NCBI GenBank assembly: GCA_030065755.1
Contig: JASJDA010000013.1
Span: forward strand, 1-53,131
Length of the DNA: 53,131 nt
Source: Prochloraceae cyanobacterium
GTDB taxonomy: Bacteria > Cyanobacteriota > Cyanobacteriia > Cyanobacteriales > JASJDA01
Direction: 5' to 3'
The first letter of the stretch is position 1; the number at the start of each line of letters is the position of its first letter. The position numbers and the translations under genes were made by a program. This document shows positions 4,146-11,643 of the stretch, piece after piece. The notes below the pieces were generated by a model. The model was given only the letters and a program-made list of their open reading frames with translations, was not told where the DNA came from and did not search any database.

Positions 4146-6830
4146 TCAATCACAATCCCGATCGGGGTTGGTTTTCCCTTCTTCTTCCCGAACAATATGT
4201 TCGATAAGTTTTTCTTTAAAGACAATTAAAGATTCAGCGCTTTCTGTATTTACAGGTTTAGAAAATAAATATCCTTGTCCGTAAGTAAAATTTAATTCTC
4301 TCACAATCTCTAATTGTTGTTTGGTTTCTATTCCTTCAGCAACTAGATTCATTCCTAAAGTATTCCCTAGATTAGCAATTGCTCGAATTACTTCTAATTT
4401 TTCTCGATCGCATTCGAGATCTTTAACGAAAGAACGATCGATTTTGATCTTATCAATTGGTAATTGATATAAATAACTCAAAGAGGAGTAGCCAGTACCA
4501 AAATCATCGAGGGCTATTTTAATGTTTAGATCGAGTAATTCTTGAATAATTAATTTAGCTCTGTCGATATCTTTAATAAGAGTACTCTCAGTGATTTCCA
4601 AAATTAAATCTTGAGGTTGAAAACCTGTTGTTTGTAAAATTTCGCTAATTTTAGTAACAAAATTAGGTTGAGCAAATTGAATTGGTGAGATATTAACGCT
4701 AATAGTTAATCCCTTCCTATTATATTTCTCCTGCCATTGACGGGTTTGGTAGCAAACAGTACGTAAAATGTAGTCGCTAAGTGGCACGATCGTTCCCGTT
4801 TCTTCTGCTATGGGAATAAACTCAGCGGAAGAAATAAAACCTCTCTCTGGATGCCGCCAACGAGCTAAGGCTTCAAATCCGTAAATCAGGTCTTCTTTGA
4901 CATCTATAATTGGTTGGTAAAAAACTTCTATTTGGTTTAATTCTAGCGCTCGCCGCAAGTTTTGTTCGTTTTCCAGTCTAGCTAAGGCCTGAGTATGCAT
5001 GGTCTGGTCAAATAACTCGTAGCGATTTTTACCTAGATTTTTAGCACAATACATGGCATTGTCAGCATCCCGCAGAATTTCGTCTGCCTGATGATAAACT
5101 GTATCACTCCAGGCAATGCCAATACTCGTGGTCACAACTACCTCATAACCATTAAGATAAAAAGGTTTCTGTAGTTGAGAGACTATTCTTTGAGCGATTA
5201 TAGTAGCTTGGCTAATGTCTTTAATTTTTTCTAGTAAAATAACGAACTCGTCTCCTCCAAGTCGTGCGACCTTATCTTGAGTGCGAGCAGATTGACTGAT
5301 TCTCTCTGCTACAGAGATCAATAGTCGATCTCCAATAAGATGGCCGAGACTGTCATTGACGATCTTAAAACGATCCAAATCTAAAAAGAGGACAGCGAAT
5401 TTATAATCATCGCATTGCTTTGTGAGTTCGATCGCTTCGTTAAGCAGATTCATAAACGAAGTACGATTTAATAGTCCTGTTAATCGATCGTGAAAAGCAA
5501 TTTTTTTTAGCGAGGCAGTACGTTTTTCTACTTGCTGCTCTAAAGTAGAAAAAGATTGTTTTAGTTGAAGTGCCATTTTATTGAAAGAACTAGCTAGTTC
5601 TCCCACTTCATCAGATCTATTTATCTCTAAAGTTTTATCCCAATCTCCTTTAGCGATATCTTTAGCTGCTTGGTTCAGTTTTAGAATCGGTTTTGCCACC
5701 CACTGGCTGGTGAGAATGCCAGTGACGATCGCTACTATTAAAGCTACGATCGATAAGAAAATAGTATGGCGAGTGTTAGCGTCAATTGTAGAGTTAAAAT
5801 CAGTTTCGGGAATGGCAATTACAATTAGCCAATCGATGCCAAACTTATCTTTAAGGCTTTGAACTTGTAAATAGTTTCGCGTCCCATCATCTCCTTGAAA
5901 ATGAGATAATAAATCCTCAACTTTATTGAAGTCGCCGTATTCATTTAATAAATATTGTGCCGTTTTTTGAACGAGAATATCTTTACTTTCCGATATATTT
6001 AAACGAGATTGTTTGGAATTAGAAAATTTGAAAGGGGAAGAGTCAGTTGAAGTAGCAATTATGTTTCCATCACGCTCGATTATTATCGCTTTGGCATTAG
6101 GACTTATTTTTAGATTAGCTAAAAATTCACTAATTTGTCCTAAACTTAAATCGCTAGCTAAAACCCCAAGAAATTCTCCTGAATTATTGTAGATTGGCGT
6201 AACTGGACTTATACCCAAGACTTTATCATTAGAAGAAGCAAATGAATAAATCGAACTCCAGGTCGGGAGTCTTGTTTTCTCTGCTGCTCGATACCAGTTT
6301 CTAACCCTCGGATCGTATATTTTAGATGTAATTAAATTATTAGTGGTATTTCCTCGATCGTCCAATAGATAAGTATTTCGATTGGGAACGGTAGAACTAT
6401 CTCGAATGTGTAAAAAATATTGACCGTCATTTTTTTGTTGAATTCCGATAAAATTTCCTTGTCGATCGCTAAAATAAAGGTAAGACAAAGAGTCAATATT
6501 TTTTACTTCTTGCCAAAAATAATTTTGTATTTGCGAGTAGTTGTTTAAACTAATAATTTGACTTTCAATGCTCGCAGAGATCGATTGATGTATTAAATGA
6601 GATTTGTCTAAATAGTTAAGCACCTGCTCTTTGACATTACTAGTAGCTCGATCGCTCAATTTAACCGCAAGATCGTCTACTGTTTTTTTACTATTTGTGT
6701 AAGACAGATAGCTTATGACCCCTACCGCAGCAGAAACTTGCATCACAAAGGGAACTATTAGGATAGTTTTTAGCGAAGCTTTATTAAAAAATTTAGAGGT
6801 GTAAGCTCGCAGATGTTTTAATACTACCAT
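4146..6830 (-). CDS. Membrane dCache-HAMP-GGDEF-EAL protein (c-di-GMP turnover)
   Basis: This 894-residue sensor should make and/or break cyclic di-GMP. A transmembrane helix (about 21-43) leads to a periplasmic dCache-type domain (about 45-350) with PRVRNWYRAAE at 174-183 and GVLASDLSL at 222-230. A second helix (355-377), a HAMP linker and a short coiled coil follow. The GGDEF motif is intact (525-529), and an RxxD inhibitory site (RTQD, 516-519) lies five residues before it. The EAL domain is also complete: FEALARWRHP (EAL at 653-655), DDFGTGYSS (775-783) and AEGIET (831-836). Both activities look possible. It is the last gene of the minus-strand uptake/sensing cluster, separated from the preceding gene by 218 bp with a striking hairpin. 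Confidence 0.93.
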   Translation of the reverse strand: MVVLKHLRAYTSKFFNKASLKTILIVPFVMQVSAAVGVISYLSYTNSKKTVDDLAVKLSDRATSNVKEQVLNYLDKSHLIHQSISASIESQIISLNNYSQIQNYFWQEVKNIDSLSYLYFSDRQGNFIGIQQKNDGQYFLHIRDSSTVPNRNTYLLDDRGNTTNNLITSKIYDPRVRNWYRAAEKTRLPTWSSIYSFASSNDKVLGISPVTPIYNNSGEFLGVLASDLSLGQISEFLANLKISPNAKAIIIERDGNIIATSTDSSPFKFSNSKQSRLNISESKDILVQKTAQYLLNEYGDFNKVEDLLSHFQGDDGTRNYLQVQSLKDKFGIDWLIVIAIPETDFNSTIDANTRHTIFLSIVALIVAIVTGILTSQWVAKPILKLNQAAKDIAKGDWDKTLEINRSDEVGELASSFNKMALQLKQSFSTLEQQVEKRTASLKKIAFHDRLTGLLNRTSFMNLLNEAIELTKQCDDYKFAVLFLDLDRFKIVNDSLGHLIGDRLLISVAERISQSARTQDKVARLGGDEFVILLEKIKDISQATIIAQRIVSQLQKPFYLNGYEVVVTTSIGIAWSDTVYHQADEILRDADNAMYCAKNLGKNRYELFDQTMHTQALARLENEQNLRRALELNQIEVFYQPIIDVKEDLIYGFEALARWRHPERGFISSAEFIPIAEETGTIVPLSDYILRTVCYQTRQWQEKYNRKGLTISVNISPIQFAQPNFVTKISEILQTTGFQPQDLILEITESTLIKDIDRAKLIIQELLDLNIKIALDDFGTGYSSLSYLYQLPIDKIKIDRSFVKDLECDREKLEVIRAIANLGNTLGMNLVAEGIETKQQLEIVRELNFTYGQGYLFSKPVNTESAESLIVFKEKLIEHIVREEEGKTNPDRDCD

Positions 6831-6930
6831 TTTTATTAATTTTTATCGATCTCAAAAAGAACGATTGATTTTTTAGCTATAGTTATTTATATTATTCGAT
6901 CCTTTTATTTCAAAAAGCTTTGTGTAAATT

Positions 6931-6961
6931 GCTGAAATTTCAGCTATTTATAGCTGAAATT
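6931..6961. repeat. Overlapping alternative palindromes upstream of the GGDEF-EAL gene
   Basis: 6931-6944 is a perfect 14-base palindrome (GCTGAAATTTCAGC). Its right half also pairs with a downstream copy: AATTTCAGCTA (6936-6946) with TAGCTGAAATT (6951-6961), an 11-bp stem with a 4-base loop. The two foldings exclude each other. The site is in the 5' region of the minus-strand GGDEF-EAL gene. It may be a protein operator or an RNA structure; no U-run supports termination. Confidence 0.7.
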
Positions 6962-7048
6962 ATAGCTAGCAGTTGTGTAAATTATAGCTATTCTACTACA
7001 TATGAATGATATTTTTATTTGATATTTGGGTAATTTAAAAGTATCAAA

Positions 7049-8503
7049 TTATGACTTTTCCTGGTTTTTTTCACGTAGAGTTTTTGCTCGATCGACAAGA
7101 TTTTGAAAGAAATCTGTTTCGACAATTTCTTGTACCTGTTTTTTGCGTTTTTCTCGATCGATTTCAATACTAAGTTTGCGTACTTGTTGTTTCAATTTTT
7201 TCTCGCGGCTGTAAACTTGACGCGCCATATTTTTAAAGACACGGGCCAATTGTCCTAGTTCGTCAGTACGAGTGGCAATAGTGTTCAATTTATCCAGTTC
7301 AAATTTTTCTTCTTCAATATCTCCAGCCACATTAGCAACGCAAAGAATTGGTCTAGCAATGAGTCGATCGGTCGCAAATACTGCTAAACCTACTGTAGTT
7401 AAGCTAAAAACTACGATCGCAATTAACAAAATCTCTTTATTTCTCTTAATCTCGTCTAAATAACTGTTTTCCGGAATTACCGTAACCACTACCCAATCTA
7501 AGTATCCAATAGGAGTGAGAGAAACATAATATTTTTCCTTTGACTTTGGATCTGTATAGGCATACTTTTGCAAGGATTTAGCTTCACTTATGGATACCAA
7601 ATTAGTGCTTATGGCTTTGCTTGCATATTGCAGTAGTGGGTTTTTAGTATCGCTTAAATGTTCTAATTGGAAAGCATTCCGATCTGCGGTTCGAGCGGGC
7701 ATAACTTCATTAAAATCTGTAGAAGCAATCAATTCATTTTTAGAGTTAATAATAAATACTTCACTTTCTTTTTGCTCTCGCAGTTGTCTTAAATATTCAG
7801 AAAGTTGTTTTAATTCAATTCCTACTCCAATAACACCAATAGTTTTGCCTTCTTTTTCTACAGTTACTGTGCCATCCATTCCTGGAGCATTACTAGAACG
7901 ATAAATATATACTGTCCAAGCAGGTTTTTCGGGATTTTTAATCGCGTTTTTATACCAAGGCCTATTTGGCGCATAAAAAGGCGGATTCATTTCTTCTTGA
8001 AAAGAGTCAGTTTTTACCCACTTATTGTTTTGTAATTCATAAGTATTTACAGTCTTAGTCGTAATTTTATTTTCTTCATTCCAGTCGCGAAAATGGAACC
8101 GAATCATATCTTTTGAAATTCTCCGCGCCCCAAAAAAATCTCCATTGGCATCGCCAAACTGAACCCAGGTAAAGTTAGGATTTGCCTGTGCGACATTCAC
8201 AAGAAAAGCTTCTTTTTCCTTGAGGTTAGAAAAATTAATTAAACTTTGACTAAAACTACTTTGAAGTAACTTTTGGGCAGATTGGGTACTAGCAAAAAGC
8301 TGTTCTACCTCTTTAGAAGCTCCTAGAGCAAATTGATCGTTAACTTGAGAAATAATCTTGTCAATATTGTGTCTAGAAACTATTAACCAAGGAAGGTATA
8401 CGATTGTAGCAGTAATACTGACAGTTGCTAAAACTGCAGCTACGAGAGTAGTTTTTAAACCTGGGTTTTTTGGGAAACGTTGAAGATATTTAATTAGCTT
8501 CAT
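7049..8503 (-). CDS. Membrane dCache-HAMP sensor protein lacking an output domain
   Basis: This 484-residue protein has a transmembrane helix (about 18-42), a large periplasmic domain, a second helix (about 357-377), a HAMP domain (about 378-430) and a charged coiled-coil tail that simply ends at 484. The periplasmic part carries the dCache landmark NRPWYKNAI (180-188), followed by a GVIGVGIEL strand. No kinase, methyl-accepting, GGDEF or phosphatase domain is present. It probably signals through a partner by its coiled coil, or it modulates the transporter encoded just upstream. Its ATG overlaps the transporter stop by one base (TAATG), which argues for strict co-expression with the transporter. 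Confidence 0.88.
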   Translation of the reverse strand: MKLIKYLQRFPKNPGLKTTLVAAVLATVSITATIVYLPWLIVSRHNIDKIISQVNDQFALGASKEVEQLFASTQSAQKLLQSSFSQSLINFSNLKEKEAFLVNVAQANPNFTWVQFGDANGDFFGARRISKDMIRFHFRDWNEENKITTKTVNTYELQNNKWVKTDSFQEEMNPPFYAPNRPWYKNAIKNPEKPAWTVYIYRSSNAPGMDGTVTVEKEGKTIGVIGVGIELKQLSEYLRQLREQKESEVFIINSKNELIASTDFNEVMPARTADRNAFQLEHLSDTKNPLLQYASKAISTNLVSISEAKSLQKYAYTDPKSKEKYYVSLTPIGYLDWVVVTVIPENSYLDEIKRNKEILLIAIVVFSLTTVGLAVFATDRLIARPILCVANVAGDIEEEKFELDKLNTIATRTDELGQLARVFKNMARQVYSREKKLKQQVRKLSIEIDREKRKKQVQEIVETDFFQNLVDRAKTLREKNQEKS

Positions 8504-9807
8504 TAATAAATTCCTTTCTTTTTCTTTTTATTAGAGTCAGCAATGACAGCCGTAGCTGCTATCCCCGTATGAACTATGGCAAGAGTGCGGAATGGATCCA
8601 TAATCGGATCGATCGCAATAAATAAAACTAAAACAGCATCGATGGGCAATTGGAGCTGATCTAGAACCAAACTAAGCATAGTAAGAGTCAAAATACCTGT
8701 CACCCCCGAAGTAGCCATCCCCGCCAAAATCGAACCGGTAACTATAATAAAAAGTTCTAGCCAACCCAACTGCGTTTGATACAATTGAGCGACAAATACA
8801 CTCGCAAGAGCAAAGTAAATAACGCTGCCAAATCGACACAAAGTAATTGACAAAGGTGCAACTAAATTAATAGTCTGGCGATCGAAAAATAGTTGTTTGG
8901 TCAAAGTGGAGATAGAAGCAGGCAAACAGGCTAGACTACTAGTAGTGACCAAAGCCAAAATTGTCGGTTCTTTAAGGGCTGATACAACCTCAAATATAGA
9001 TTGCTTCGTTTGTTTCCAAATAACTAAGGTACTCAGACAATATATGAGTGCAAAAGTACCGATCGAGATGATAATAAAATTCAGCATTGAAAATATTACG
9101 TCTATCCCTACTTTAGATAACTGGTTGGCTAGCAGGCTGCACAATCCAAAAGGTAATGCAATAGTCAACCAGCTAATTACCTGATTAAAGGTTTTATAAG
9201 TACTGTCTAGAATATTGAAGATTGTTTTTGTAGAATCGGCAGCTAACAATCCTAAGGAAATACCGCAAATAATCGCAAAAACAAGTACTTTTAAAGTTTG
9301 ACCTTCACTTAGTGCATTAAATATATTTTCAGGCACTAGATTCAGCAAAAAATTGCTTAGATCGGGTTGTTTCTCTACGGGAAGAGGGCCAGTTAGAGAA
9401 ATTTCTAAGTCCAGCCCAGATTTATTAACTAAAATACCGAGAGTTTCTAAAGTTGATGAAGTTAAATTTTGCCCTGGGCCTGTAATTTGTGCTGAGGCTA
9501 CGGCAATTATACTAACTAAGAGTAATCCTACAGGAAAGGCAATCAGAATTCGACGAACATATTGTGCGGCATTCTGACTCTTCATGAGTCTTCCAATACT
9601 AATAGTAATTGCCGAAAGCAGAATCGGTAGAACGCACATTTTCAGCAAACCCAAATAAACAATTCCAAAGGGTGCTATTATTTTTGTTATTCCTATTTGG
9701 AAAGTCCCTATATATATGCCGAGAGCAACGCTAACTAAGATTGCCCAGGGGCTAGATAGCCAGGTTATAGAAATGGGATTTGACTGTGGTATGTATTGAT
9801 TTTTCAT
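8503..9807 (-). CDS. Divergent dicarboxylate/amino acid:cation symporter (DAACS) family transporter
   Basis: The 434-residue polytopic membrane protein has the DAACS (glutamate/aspartate transporter) pattern: LLKMCVLPILLSAI early on, a serine/threonine-rich re-entrant region (ALVTTSSLACLPASISTL), and IAIDPIMDPFRTLAIVHTG near the C-terminus. By eye the helix-7 NMDGT motif of typical members is replaced by CRFGS. The aspartate expected downstream of the conserved DxxxR in helix 8 is also missing, so ion coupling or substrate may differ. It lies 31 bp after a periplasmic binding protein gene and is translationally coupled to a dCache-HAMP gene. This is an unusual pairing for a secondary transporter. 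Confidence 0.88.
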   Translation of the reverse strand: MKNQYIPQSNPISITWLSSPWAILVSVALGIYIGTFQIGITKIIAPFGIVYLGLLKMCVLPILLSAITISIGRLMKSQNAAQYVRRILIAFPVGLLLVSIIAVASAQITGPGQNLTSSTLETLGILVNKSGLDLEISLTGPLPVEKQPDLSNFLLNLVPENIFNALSEGQTLKVLVFAIICGISLGLLAADSTKTIFNILDSTYKTFNQVISWLTIALPFGLCSLLANQLSKVGIDVIFSMLNFIIISIGTFALIYCLSTLVIWKQTKQSIFEVVSALKEPTILALVTTSSLACLPASISTLTKQLFFDRQTINLVAPLSITLCRFGSVIYFALASVFVAQLYQTQLGWLELFIIVTGSILAGMATSGVTGILTLTMLSLVLDQLQLPIDAVLVLFIAIDPIMDPFRTLAIVHTGIAATAVIADSNKKKKKGIY

Positions 9808-9838
9808 AGTATCTAAACATAAGTAGTGAACAGAATTA

Positions 9839-10729
9839 TTAATTTTTGGCAGACGTGTATTGCGAATATTCTTTGAGAATTGTGTCAGCAGTATATTCTG
9901 ATGGCATTGTTTCTAGGTACTGATTGACGAAAGCTAGCAATTGCTCGCTATCCCAGGGAAAAGCCATGGCAATATAGTCTTGCGTGTCAGTTAAAGCAAT
10001 AGTCTTTAAATTTAGAGCGATATCGGGTTGGTTGAAAACGACTTTTTTAATTTCTAATTCGTCTCGATAACCTGCTAGGATTTGCCCTGTAGTAACTGCT
10101 TCAACAATTTCAGACCAAGAGGAAAATTCCACAATCTTTGCTTGAGGAAATTTCTGTTTCAGGAAGTTTACGTAAGAAGAACCTTTAATAACTCCCACCT
10201 CGCCTCGTAAATCTCTAATGGTTTCGGTTATGCTTCTACGTCTAGTTTGTTGTGCGAGCTGAAGGCGATTGACTAGCAAACCTTGTCGCATTTTGAGGTA
10301 GGGAGAAGAAAAGCGAACTAGCTTTGCTCGACTCAAAGTTCTGCTCAACTTGGAAATAGCGATATCAGCATCTAGTTGGTAAACTCGATCGACAACTTCG
10401 TTAAAAGTTTTGGCCGTGCGATCGAATTCCAAAGTAACTCCTAATTGTTTGGCGATCTCCCCAGCAATTTTAACGTCGAGTCCCTCTAATCGATCGCTAT
10501 CAGCCGAGGTAAAAAAAGGTGGATTGTCTTTGCCTAAAATAGCAACCACCAGTTTTCCCCGATCCAAAATGCGCTTAATGTCAGGAGACATACTAGATCT
10601 AACTTGAGCTGGAACTGCTTTTTCTCCTGCAGCTATAGCTTTGGGAGTATCTAAAATGGTACAGATACCTAAAAAAATGGCCACTAAAGCGATCGATATC
10701 AAAATCTTAAGTTTTCTGAGATTGGGCAT
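9839..10729 (-). CDS. Periplasmic amino-acid-type substrate-binding protein (SBP family 3)
   Basis: This 296-residue protein starts with a signal peptide (hydrophobic at about 10-26, Ala-rich cleavage region near 33). The mature part has the family-3 periplasmic binding fold: ILDRGKLVVAI, then LEGLDVKIAGEIAKQLGV, a middle RFSSPYLKMRQGLLV and a hinge-return LRGEVGVIKGSS. Family members bind polar amino acids or small carboxylates and normally feed ABC transporters; some are fused to sensors or enzymes. No ABC permease or ATPase is nearby, and the downstream partner is a DAACS symporter. An AGGAGG site precedes the ATG and fills the 8-bp gap to the racemase gene stop. Substrate unknown; Asp or Glu is plausible from context. 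Confidence 0.88.
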   Translation of the reverse strand: MPNLRKLKILISIALVAIFLGICTILDTPKAIAAGEKAVPAQVRSSMSPDIKRILDRGKLVVAILGKDNPPFFTSADSDRLEGLDVKIAGEIAKQLGVTLEFDRTAKTFNEVVDRVYQLDADIAISKLSRTLSRAKLVRFSSPYLKMRQGLLVNRLQLAQQTRRRSITETIRDLRGEVGVIKGSSYVNFLKQKFPQAKIVEFSSWSEIVEAVTTGQILAGYRDELEIKKVVFNQPDIALNLKTIALTDTQDYIAMAFPWDSEQLLAFVNQYLETMPSEYTADTILKEYSQYTSAKN

Positions 10730-10737
10730 AATTCCTC

Positions 10738-11643
10738 CTAGGCTGCTGCGATCTGCGAGTTCAATTGGGGGGAGTTTAATTGAGTACCGTCGAAGGCCAG
10801 ATCGATCGATACTTTGGCTGCCACAGAAAGGGGATCTACCACTTTTAGGGGTAAATTTTTCATCCTACTGAGGGCTATTGATAGTTCGGTGCATCCAGCC
10901 ACCACTAACTCAGCTCCTCGATCGGCTAGATAGAAAACTGCTCTTTCCAACACCTGAAATACTTGCTCTGACACCCTAGACCCAGTAGTTTTGATTCCCC
11001 ACTCAGGAGAATATATTGCTTGCATTACCTCATTTTGAATCTCCGAATCTAAGGGAGGAAAAACAGGAATTAAACCAGTCTGAAGCAGATAAGAATTGTA
11101 TAAGCTATTAGAGAGGGTTCCTGACGTTGCTAGCACGCCTACTTGGGTCACAGTGGGGTATTGTTTGACGATCGTATCGATAGTAGATTCGATTAAGTGA
11201 ACCCAGGGAATGTCAAGCTGGGGCTGAACTCGATCGTAAAAGACATGGGCGGTATTGCAGGTAACAATTAAAAAGTCTGCACCTGCTTTTTGTAACAGTT
11301 TTCCGTACCTGACTAAATGAGGGACGCAATCTGGAGCCTCTCCAGAAAGGCTTTTGGTTCGGTCTGGGATGTCTGTTGCAGAAACCAAAATCCATACTGG
11401 ATATTCTTGGTCGCAGCAGCTTCCTCTTTTAGCACTTTCTTTGAGGAGTCTCAGTTCAAACTCGATATGTGCTAAAGGCCCCAATCCGCCTAAAATACCT
11501 GGAATGGCAATTTGTTTTGTGAGATTTGATAGTGGTTTATTTTTTTGTCGTAGCATGGATTCTAAGTAAATAGCGCTGCTGATTAATAACAGATACGGGG
11601 GATTGCACAAATTAGCTACGGTTAAGCCCACAGCCAAGAGCAT
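10738..11643 (-). CDS. Aspartate/glutamate racemase family protein
   Basis: PLP-independent racemases of this family use two cysteines as acid/base pair. Both are visible: TCNTAH (Cys129) and AGCTEL (Cys251). The glycine-rich start GILGGLGPLA (about 49-58) is also typical. The 301-residue form starts at the ATG at 11643 and has a hydrophobic N-terminal stretch (1-28) that could be a signal or anchor. A second in-frame ATG at 11556 would give a 272-residue cytoplasmic protein close to the usual family length. Neither has a strong ribosome site, so the start is uncertain. It is the first gene of the cluster with a binding protein and symporter, suggesting that D- and L-amino acid interconversion is linked to uptake. 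Confidence 0.85.
   Translation of the reverse strand: MLLAVGLTVANLCNPPYLLLISSAIYLESMLRQKNKPLSNLTKQIAIPGILGGLGPLAHIEFELRLLKESAKRGSCCDQEYPVWILVSATDIPDRTKSLSGEAPDCVPHLVRYGKLLQKAGADFLIVTCNTAHVFYDRVQPQLDIPWVHLIESTIDTIVKQYPTVTQVGVLATSGTLSNSLYNSYLLQTGLIPVFPPLDSEIQNEVMQAIYSPEWGIKTTGSRVSEQVFQVLERAVFYLADRGAELVVAGCTELSIALSRMKNLPLKVVDPLSVAAKVSIDLAFDGTQLNSPQLNSQIAAA

Follow-up and report, generated by a model that had tools for sequence, protein, structure and literature searches.

Introduction

Before TAXI-GltS of Bordetella pertussis (BP0403-BP0402) was described as a novel type of secondary transporter that depends on a substrate-binding protein (SBP), only the TRAP and TT types were known, according to the available portion of that report (PMC12344293). 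DAACS proteins, among them GltPh and the EAATs, are classic elevators, and in a literature search made mostly without subscription papers we found no SBP-dependent member of this family. Here we describe an SBP-linked example, encoded in a five-gene cluster on the minus strand of a 53,131-nt contig of a Prochloraceae cyanobacterium (JASJDA010000013.1 of assembly GCA_030065755.1, hereafter the window; contig C178 of the 8.46-Mb genome). The reading towards which we lean, if only slightly, is that this SBP feeds a DAACS which takes acidic C4 amino acids and is probably not coupled to ions, that the racemase is its metabolic partner and that a Cache receptor senses alongside it.

In the available portion of its report, TAXI-GltS resembles this locus in that an SBP gene is linked to a non-TRAP, elevator-type glutamate transporter and in that SBP-transporter fusions exist. 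It differs in both components (a TAXI SBP and GltS, versus a family-3 SBP and a DAACS here), in that GltS is an Na+ symporter whereas the DAACS here lacks ion signatures, and in that no racemase or Cache receptor is described with TAXI-GltS in that portion. TRAP and TTT systems also exemplify SBP-fed secondary transport; unlike these and TAXI-GltS, the window proteins match only Pfam SBP_bac_3 (with Lig_chan-Glu_bd) and SDF. Another cyanobacterial DAACS, All0342 of Anabaena, was studied with no mention of a binding protein of its own in the accessible part of the paper (PMC4500139).

As far as the available text on the Bacillus subtilis DctS/DctB/DctA unit goes (PMC6978683), a C4 transporter of the DAACS family works jointly with an accessory co-receptor and a sensor kinase in the membrane, and DctB co-senses C4-dicarboxylates, whereas the SBP here is of the family-3 amino-acid type. 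A comparable gene set (DAACS, SBP and Cache sensor) is encoded together in the window; unlike in the Dct unit, an SBP is also found in fusion with a DAACS, the set includes a racemase and the receptor outputs vary. We take DctB, too, to be a binding protein.

Uncoupled glutamate transporters often adjoin amino-acid enzymes, and uptake driven by enzymatic use has been suggested for them in the part of Reddy et al. 2025 (PMC12668577) available to us; the racemase found here fits that pattern. Like the AncInt and ExtInt proteins of that study, the DAACS of the window has no full Na+ or H+ signature and has an amino-acid enzyme nearby. That clade comes from Bacillota, and the reconstructed AncInt retains its ion-site residues; in the DAACS of the window the acidic ligands themselves have disappeared, and an SBP accompanies it. 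A search of the paper's main text for "substrate-binding protein" and for "periplasmic" gives 0 hits. The locus bears on a question that the accessible part of Reddy et al. leaves open, namely what uncoupled glutamate transporters are for, since one conserved gene set here unites an SBP and a metabolic enzyme with the disappearance of both acidic ion ligands.

Linkage of the binding protein to the transporter

In the window, the gene for the periplasmic family-3 SBP (9839..10729, minus strand; Pfam SBP_bac_3, 2.5e-20) precedes that for the DAACS/SDF-fold transporter (8503..9807, minus strand; Pfam SDF, 1.4e-66). The initial annotation had placed them in a minus-strand series of racemase, SBP, DAACS, Cache receptor without output and Cache-GGDEF-EAL protein, the first four tightly packed. 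Open reading frames and Pfam agree with this order and with its domains and coordinates, and the gaps between the first four genes measure 8, 31 and -1 bp (the last a TAATG overlap).

We searched 148 genomes of the order for homologues of the window DAACS (E < 1e-60) and SBP (E < 1e-44). Close homologues of the DAACS were present in six other genomes and those of the SBP in the same six, each adjoining the DAACS; counting the window genome, the two are linked in 7/7, and the next SBP match came only at ~1e-15. Any DAACS match at all was found in 51/148 genomes, of which the window clade is a patchy minority. A second survey, with alignments as queries, covered 386 genomes of the phylum (DAACS clade at E ≤ 1e-50, SBP clade at E ≤ 1e-30). 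The DAACS clade occurred in 6 and the SBP clade in 10 of these genomes, window genome included. The SBP was present in 6/6 DAACS-clade genomes and a DAACS in 10/10 SBP-clade genomes, adjoining in 8, in four of which the DAACS fell below the threshold but lay directly after the SBP.

A scan of named genomes returned 54 related DAACS loci in five phyla, mostly cyanobacteria (Leptolyngbya, Nodosilinea, Planktothrix, Arthrospira and others) together with Desulfobacterales, gammaproteobacteria (Thiomargarita, Methylococcaceae), Devosia, Metarhizobium, Fibrobacter and an Omnitrophota metagenome-assembled genome (MAG). In 50/54 the DAACS has an SBP no more than 500 bp away. The four loci without a nearby SBP are L092, where a contig edge ends the upstream region, L126 and L127, which are fragmentary DAACS matches, and L123. 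Since L100, L106 and L119 come from the same genomes as G121, G125 and G130, these surveys share part of their data and are not independent of each other. Of the 34 DAACS loci taken as controls (flanks of ~1.5 kb or less), one, L070 (G046), has an SBP-like open reading frame, which adjoins a canonical DAACS and two BPD_transp_1 ABC permeases; we set this locus aside as a case of SBP-DAACS linkage on account of the two permeases.

Recurrence in five phyla and co-occurrence across whole genomes rule out a chance or assembly neighborhood, and establish the SBP-DAACS linkage as genomics. By the initial annotation, genes that part company in relatives, or an SBP always found with a separate ABC permease elsewhere, would have spoken against its reading; neither was observed. 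The SBP and DAACS do travel together, and the SBP subfamily is exclusive to DAACS in the genomes searched; the racemase is common (within 3 kb of the DAACS in 34/54 loci), and 26/52 loci have a Cache receptor at that distance or closer, the fragmentary L126 and L127 being absent from this and the other 52-locus counts.

Proteins of the SBP_bac_3 family normally serve ABC systems, and the closest solved relatives of the window SBP are mostly ABC binding proteins. The SBP might then feed an ABC permease encoded elsewhere, the neighborhood being a mere set of acidic amino-acid genes, a proposal that we regard as very improbable. Against it, the SBP subfamily goes with a DAACS in 10/10 genomes, and an ABC partner near the loci was ruled out by a profile scan of 70 loci that found no relatives of two reference amino-acid ABC permeases; the profile is narrow, being built from the L070 pair alone, so that it recovers L070 by construction without an independent positive control and could miss distant permeases. 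The pattern is that of an SBP linked or fused to a secondary transporter with no ABC permease beside it, as gene criteria for SBP-dependent secondary transporters have it, and it points to SBP-dependent transport here.

Fusions that join SBP and DAACS in one polypeptide likewise argue against an ABC partner. The window genome encodes, in addition, a 739-aa protein with an N-terminal SDF and a C-terminal SBP_bac_3 domain, and near end-to-end matches to this fusion were found in four other genomes (292 searched). Pfam, run on one of these four relatives, reports both domains, the SBP just above the cut-off; one of the four has a TGA inside the translated match, yet gave an open frame of 750 aa in a second reading. 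Between the fused domains lies a hydrophobic stretch at about residues 408-432 (best 21-mer mean Kyte-Doolittle hydropathy 1.97-2.40 in the four fusions measured), because of which the fused SBP would sit outside the membrane. In a quick tree, from which four duplicate rows had been dropped, the DAACS domains of the fusions form a separate group (support 100), and the SBP-linked rows lie on one side of a branch with support 82, below the 95 mark and accompanied by long-branch warnings. SBP-DAACS linkage may therefore have had two origins or one.

At three loci (L067 7642-11658, L069 7343-11286 and L116 9086-14027) the SBP is flanked by or precedes two divergent DAACS genes, which suggests mixed DAACS trimers or a pair of carrier and regulator.

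Ion and substrate sites of the transporter

Profile alignment of the DAACS to GltTk and an ancestral aspartate transporter, and a multiple alignment, both place a CRFGS motif in transmembrane helix 7 (8824..8838, minus strand) at the position of NMDGT (N310C, M311R, D312F). In helix 8, the motif IDPIMDPFRT (8584..8613, minus strand) keeps D394, R397 and T398, and N401 and D405 are lost just past it. Hence Arg325 occupies the position of GltPh Met311, and none of the Na+ side chains Asn310, Asp312, Asn401 and Asp405 remains. We scored the published signatures as given in the accessible part of PMC12668577 (Na+: [ST]92-93, N310, [MS]311, [DE]312, [DE]405; H+: [ALIVMF]92, L311, N405). The full Na+ signature is present in 0/71 DAACS rows of the SBP clade versus 8/33 controls and the full H+ signature in 0/71 versus 1/33; the five fusions have neither (0/5 for each). 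The 71 rows include four duplicates and some rows without an adjoining SBP (L092, L123, G340, G211 and the paralogue on contig C243 of the window genome), and the 34 control loci yielded 33 rows because L135 gave no DAACS row.

Both published signatures are also missing from 24 of the 33 control rows, 13 of which belong to a KRDG group without NMDGT, whereas an acid is missing at both 312 and 405 in 71/71 SBP-clade rows and in only 1/33 controls. It is therefore the joint loss of both acids that distinguishes the clade. Arg or Lys stands at 311 in 62/71 rows, and an Arg within the ion site argues against Na+ there. Though many controls miss signature residues as well, the window DAACS is probably not the ordinary cation symporter of the initial annotation, and probably no longer uses Na+; from the residues lost, we infer a lack of ion coupling.

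The protein could instead be an ion-coupled symporter that relies on non-canonical residues for its H+ or Na+, the SBP only raising affinity, as proposed for TAXI-GltS. The DAACS fold and the kept substrate residues fit such a transporter, as do Na+/H+ exchanger-like or MnhB-related genes near four loci (L155 3601-4968, L116 14024-15268, L154 5719-6447 and L156 6108-6881), and the 24 controls caution that signature loss alone is no mark of uncoupling. The absence of both acidic Na+ ligands from all 71 rows and the Arg in the site speak against it, and we judge it rather unlikely.

The acidic amino-acid site is better kept. Both D394 and R397 are present in the window DAACS; in a 64-row alignment Asp394 is found in 54, Arg397 in 55 and Thr398 in 57 rows, and Arg397 is kept in 62/71 rows of the SBP clade. 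Nine of the 64 rows carry Leu at 397, including a group from Devosia, Methylococcaceae, Omnitrophota and Fibrobacter. An AlphaFold2 model of the DAACS (pLDDT 86.0, pTM 0.85) has as its best fold matches in the PDB GltTk (E 2.1e-15) and an "ancestral uncoupled aspartate transporter", with 9bgz and 9bgy among the best.

Binding protein, racemase and candidate ligand

The SBP has a signal-like N-terminus, judged by eye. The Arg of an SRAK motif and the Asp of a YRDE motif are found in 63/64 aligned rows, the remaining row being a gap; we take these residues to be the ones that in this SBP family usually hold the alpha-carboxylate and the alpha-amino group. An extra Arg is present in 57/64 rows. 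In 13/54 loci the SBP carries an N-terminal extension resembling PG_binding_1, as detected with our own profile and with the agreement of Pfam in three relatives.

The racemase (10738..11643, minus strand) is of the Asp/Glu type, independent of pyridoxal phosphate (Pfam Asp_Glu_race, 1.1e-33; TIGR00035 over its cut-off), and has both Cys motifs, CNTAH and GCTEL. An ATG at 11643 would add 29 partly hydrophobic residues that five relatives compared do not have, so the ATG at 11556 is the likelier start. Across the cluster racemases, GCTE is found in 39/39 and CN[TS][AS]H in 34/39; three of the other five have a Cys in a variant motif and two were not resolved. All eight racemases tested, that of the window and those of seven relatives, pass a general amino-acid racemase model. 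The best curated model for the window enzyme is the CuyB cysteate racemase (NF052483), at 163.4 bits and under the cut-off of 190; 7/8 racemases miss this cut-off and only the Desulfobacteraceae enzyme at L113 passes, with 233.8. In ESFC-1 (L064/L100) the racemase is replaced by a PALP enzyme whose nearest model is beta-hydroxyaspartate dehydratase, with a score below the cut-off.

In three small genomes (L154, L156 and L157), SBP and DAACS lie just downstream of an ion-channel-like gene and a gene for ComA, phosphosulfolactate synthase, a neighbor that hints at a sulfonate substrate. Racemase, PALP and ComA enzymes act on C3/C4 acidic or sulfonated compounds, and this favors aspartate-like ligands. 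GltTk accepts D- and L-aspartate alike in the accessible part of one study (PMC6482001). The initial annotation had suggested D- or L-acidic amino acids as the ligand. Going by the scores of the enzyme models and the ComA context, aspartate, cysteate or hydroxyaspartate may be transported instead of glutamate.

Cache receptors and their outputs

The gene after the DAACS (7049..8503, minus strand) encodes a dCache-HAMP membrane receptor without an enzyme output domain (Pfam dCache_1, 6.6e-18; its HAMP domain scores 21.4 bits, below the Pfam cut-off of 25). A Cache receptor is found within 3 kb of the DAACS in 25 of the 40 loci with at least 2 kb of downstream sequence. Of the 26 receptors found nearby in all, 22 are shorter than 560 aa, one of them (L091) being ended by a contig edge, and Pfam, run on two (L077 and L075), finds no enzyme domain. 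Sorted by eye from the alignment, those like the window receptor (type I) occur on the same strand at 16 of the 52 loci, and those of type II are convergent, at 6 loci. Other receptors do carry outputs: adenylate cyclase in Planktothrix, histidine kinase in G105, kinase-receiver on C243 and SpoIIE in Methylobacter.

An AlphaFold2 model of the window type I receptor (pLDDT 77.8, pTM 0.62) matches in the PDB two integrative chemoreceptor models and then mostly amino-acid dCache chemoreceptors. The dCache_1AA motif Y..R.WY..D corresponds to R126, W128, Y129 and D173 of PctA, and its roles, with the Asp contacting the amino group, are given in the available portion of PMC10104139. In the window type I receptor the R, W and Y are kept and the Asp is replaced by G. 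At what we take to be the position of the first Tyr it has F, leaving it short of the motif at two residues; with F and G at these places, its signal may be a ligand other than an amino compound, or a partner protein. The initial annotation had called both Cache proteins of the cluster amino-acid-type sensors; for the type I receptor a free amino acid is not a necessary ligand, whereas the GGDEF-EAL neighbor by eye keeps the motif positions.

That neighbor (4146..6830, minus strand; Pfam dCache_1, HAMP, GGDEF and EAL; type II Cache) lies 218 bp beyond the first four genes, a gap that leaves it not clearly co-transcribed with them. No Cache-GGDEF-EAL protein occurs at any locus of the compared locus table, although an EAL-labelled open reading frame lies ~0.6 kb past the receptor at L114. 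The sensor half of the window protein is 37% identical to a sensor kinase beside a racemase-DAACS paralogue on C243 and 31-33% identical to four type II output-less receptors beside SBP-DAACS loci elsewhere, and the protein is probably a lineage-specific associate of the cluster. Reporting through cyclic di-GMP, as first proposed, looks particular to the window genome, and as a general output it is ruled out by the differing receptor outputs (cyclase, kinase, SpoIIE or no enzyme domain), the L114 frame notwithstanding. The paralogous locus on C243 (L071 5733-10374) encodes a dCache-HAMP-HisKA-HATPase-REC protein, a racemase and a shortened DAACS (396 aa, TTG start).

Receptors so close to the transporter raise a further alternative, in which sensing comes first: SBP, DAACS and Cache receptor would form a tripartite unit whose DAACS is a transceptor with little or no net transport. 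A receptor within 3 kb in half of the loci, with outputs that differ among relatives, would suit such a unit; loss of both acidic ion ligands throughout the clade fits a transporter turned sensor; and DctA acts as an activity switch in the Dct tripartite unit, by the available part of its description (PMC6978683). On the other side, SBP and DAACS stay together where no Cache receptor adjoins them (26/52 loci, L154-L157 and the fusion loci L158-L161), the substrate residues are mostly conserved, and the racemase implies metabolism of the solute. We think this alternative unlikely.

Proposed mechanism and points against it

For the favored binding-protein-fed, uncoupled DAACS, we propose the following course. 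The SBP in the periplasm, which in some relatives bears a peptidoglycan-binding domain, would capture D/L-aspartate or a close analogue such as cysteate or hydroxyaspartate, and once loaded would pass its ligand on to the elevator domain in the trimeric DAACS. The DAACS, without use of Na+, would work as a facilitator or exchanger, and the SBP on the outside together with enzymatic turnover on the inside (by the racemase, or in one genome by an enzyme resembling hydroxyaspartate lyase) would decide the direction of transport. The adjoining Cache-HAMP receptor may co-sense the loaded SBP or the transporter, as in Bacillus DctS/DctB/DctA, and would relay their state by way of the conserved tail, a role that exchanged output domains would take over in relatives. 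Of the initial annotation, this retains the idea of a binding-protein-dependent secondary transporter, which linkage, exclusivity and fusions favor, and departs from it on cyclic di-GMP as a general output, on ordinary cation symport and on the ligand of the type I sensor.

Several observations count against this reading. The distribution is patchy: within the order, 7/148 genomes have the close DAACS, and the sole congener in that survey has no DAACS match at all. Distances of 14 kb and ~100 kb separate SBP and DAACS in two members of a single genus, L123 of Methylobacter has a DAACS and a sensor and is truly without an SBP, and the paralogue on C243 is a racemase-DAACS pair without an adjoining SBP. 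No receptor lies within 3 kb at 26/52 loci, 15 of them among the 40 with at least 2 kb of downstream sequence. The fusions do not keep Asp394 and Arg397, so that their substrate may differ, and most of the racemases fall short of the CuyB cut-off. As to ion coupling, most controls miss both full signatures, an ion might be held by some other residue, the four loci named above have Na+/H+ exchanger-like or MnhB-related genes nearby, and uncoupled uniport of an anion favors efflux at a negative membrane potential, so that exchange or unseen coupling may be needed.

The conserved receptor tail and other features

The type I receptor of the window ends in a conserved coil and tail (7052..7270, minus strand; RLKQQV..IEID..KR..QV.EIVETDFFQ.L..KA..LR). 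Both the form of the receptor and its tail are kept in 15 relatives aligned, which rules out a degenerate output-less receptor. "Without output", the wording of the initial annotation, is right as to enzyme domains and, given this small conserved tail, not quite right otherwise. The same tail ends two FHA-GAF proteins of the window genome (L163 and L164), and tail matches (E ≤ 1e-6), some partial and a few internal, were found in 60/120 genomes of the order. By Pfam, ten tail proteins comprise six dCache-HAMP, one dCache-HAMP with a cNMP domain, one FHA-GAF, one glutaminase and one kinase-receiver-ParA protein, the match being internal in the cNMP and ParA proteins. From the proteins that carry it (window, L163, L164 and L173-L196), the ~70-residue tail looks like an undescribed cyanobacterial signaling module. 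Output-less receptors beside a transporter and this recurrent module together offer a handle on transporter-linked sensing in cyanobacteria.

Scans of the window for promoters (21 found versus 24.7 expected) and terminators (8 versus 5.2, sd 2.4) were near chance and were not used as evidence. The genes for the two FHA-GAF-tail proteins, on C204 and C356, have as neighbors an ABC exporter in one case and a MinD/ParA-like ATPase in the other, as read from sequence. In Leptolyngbya PCC 7375 (L076 5537-7952), the cluster has phage baseplate and DUF4280 genes on its upstream side, and in a Desulfobacterales MAG (L112 1-7887) the upstream genes resemble, by eye, type VI secretion genes.

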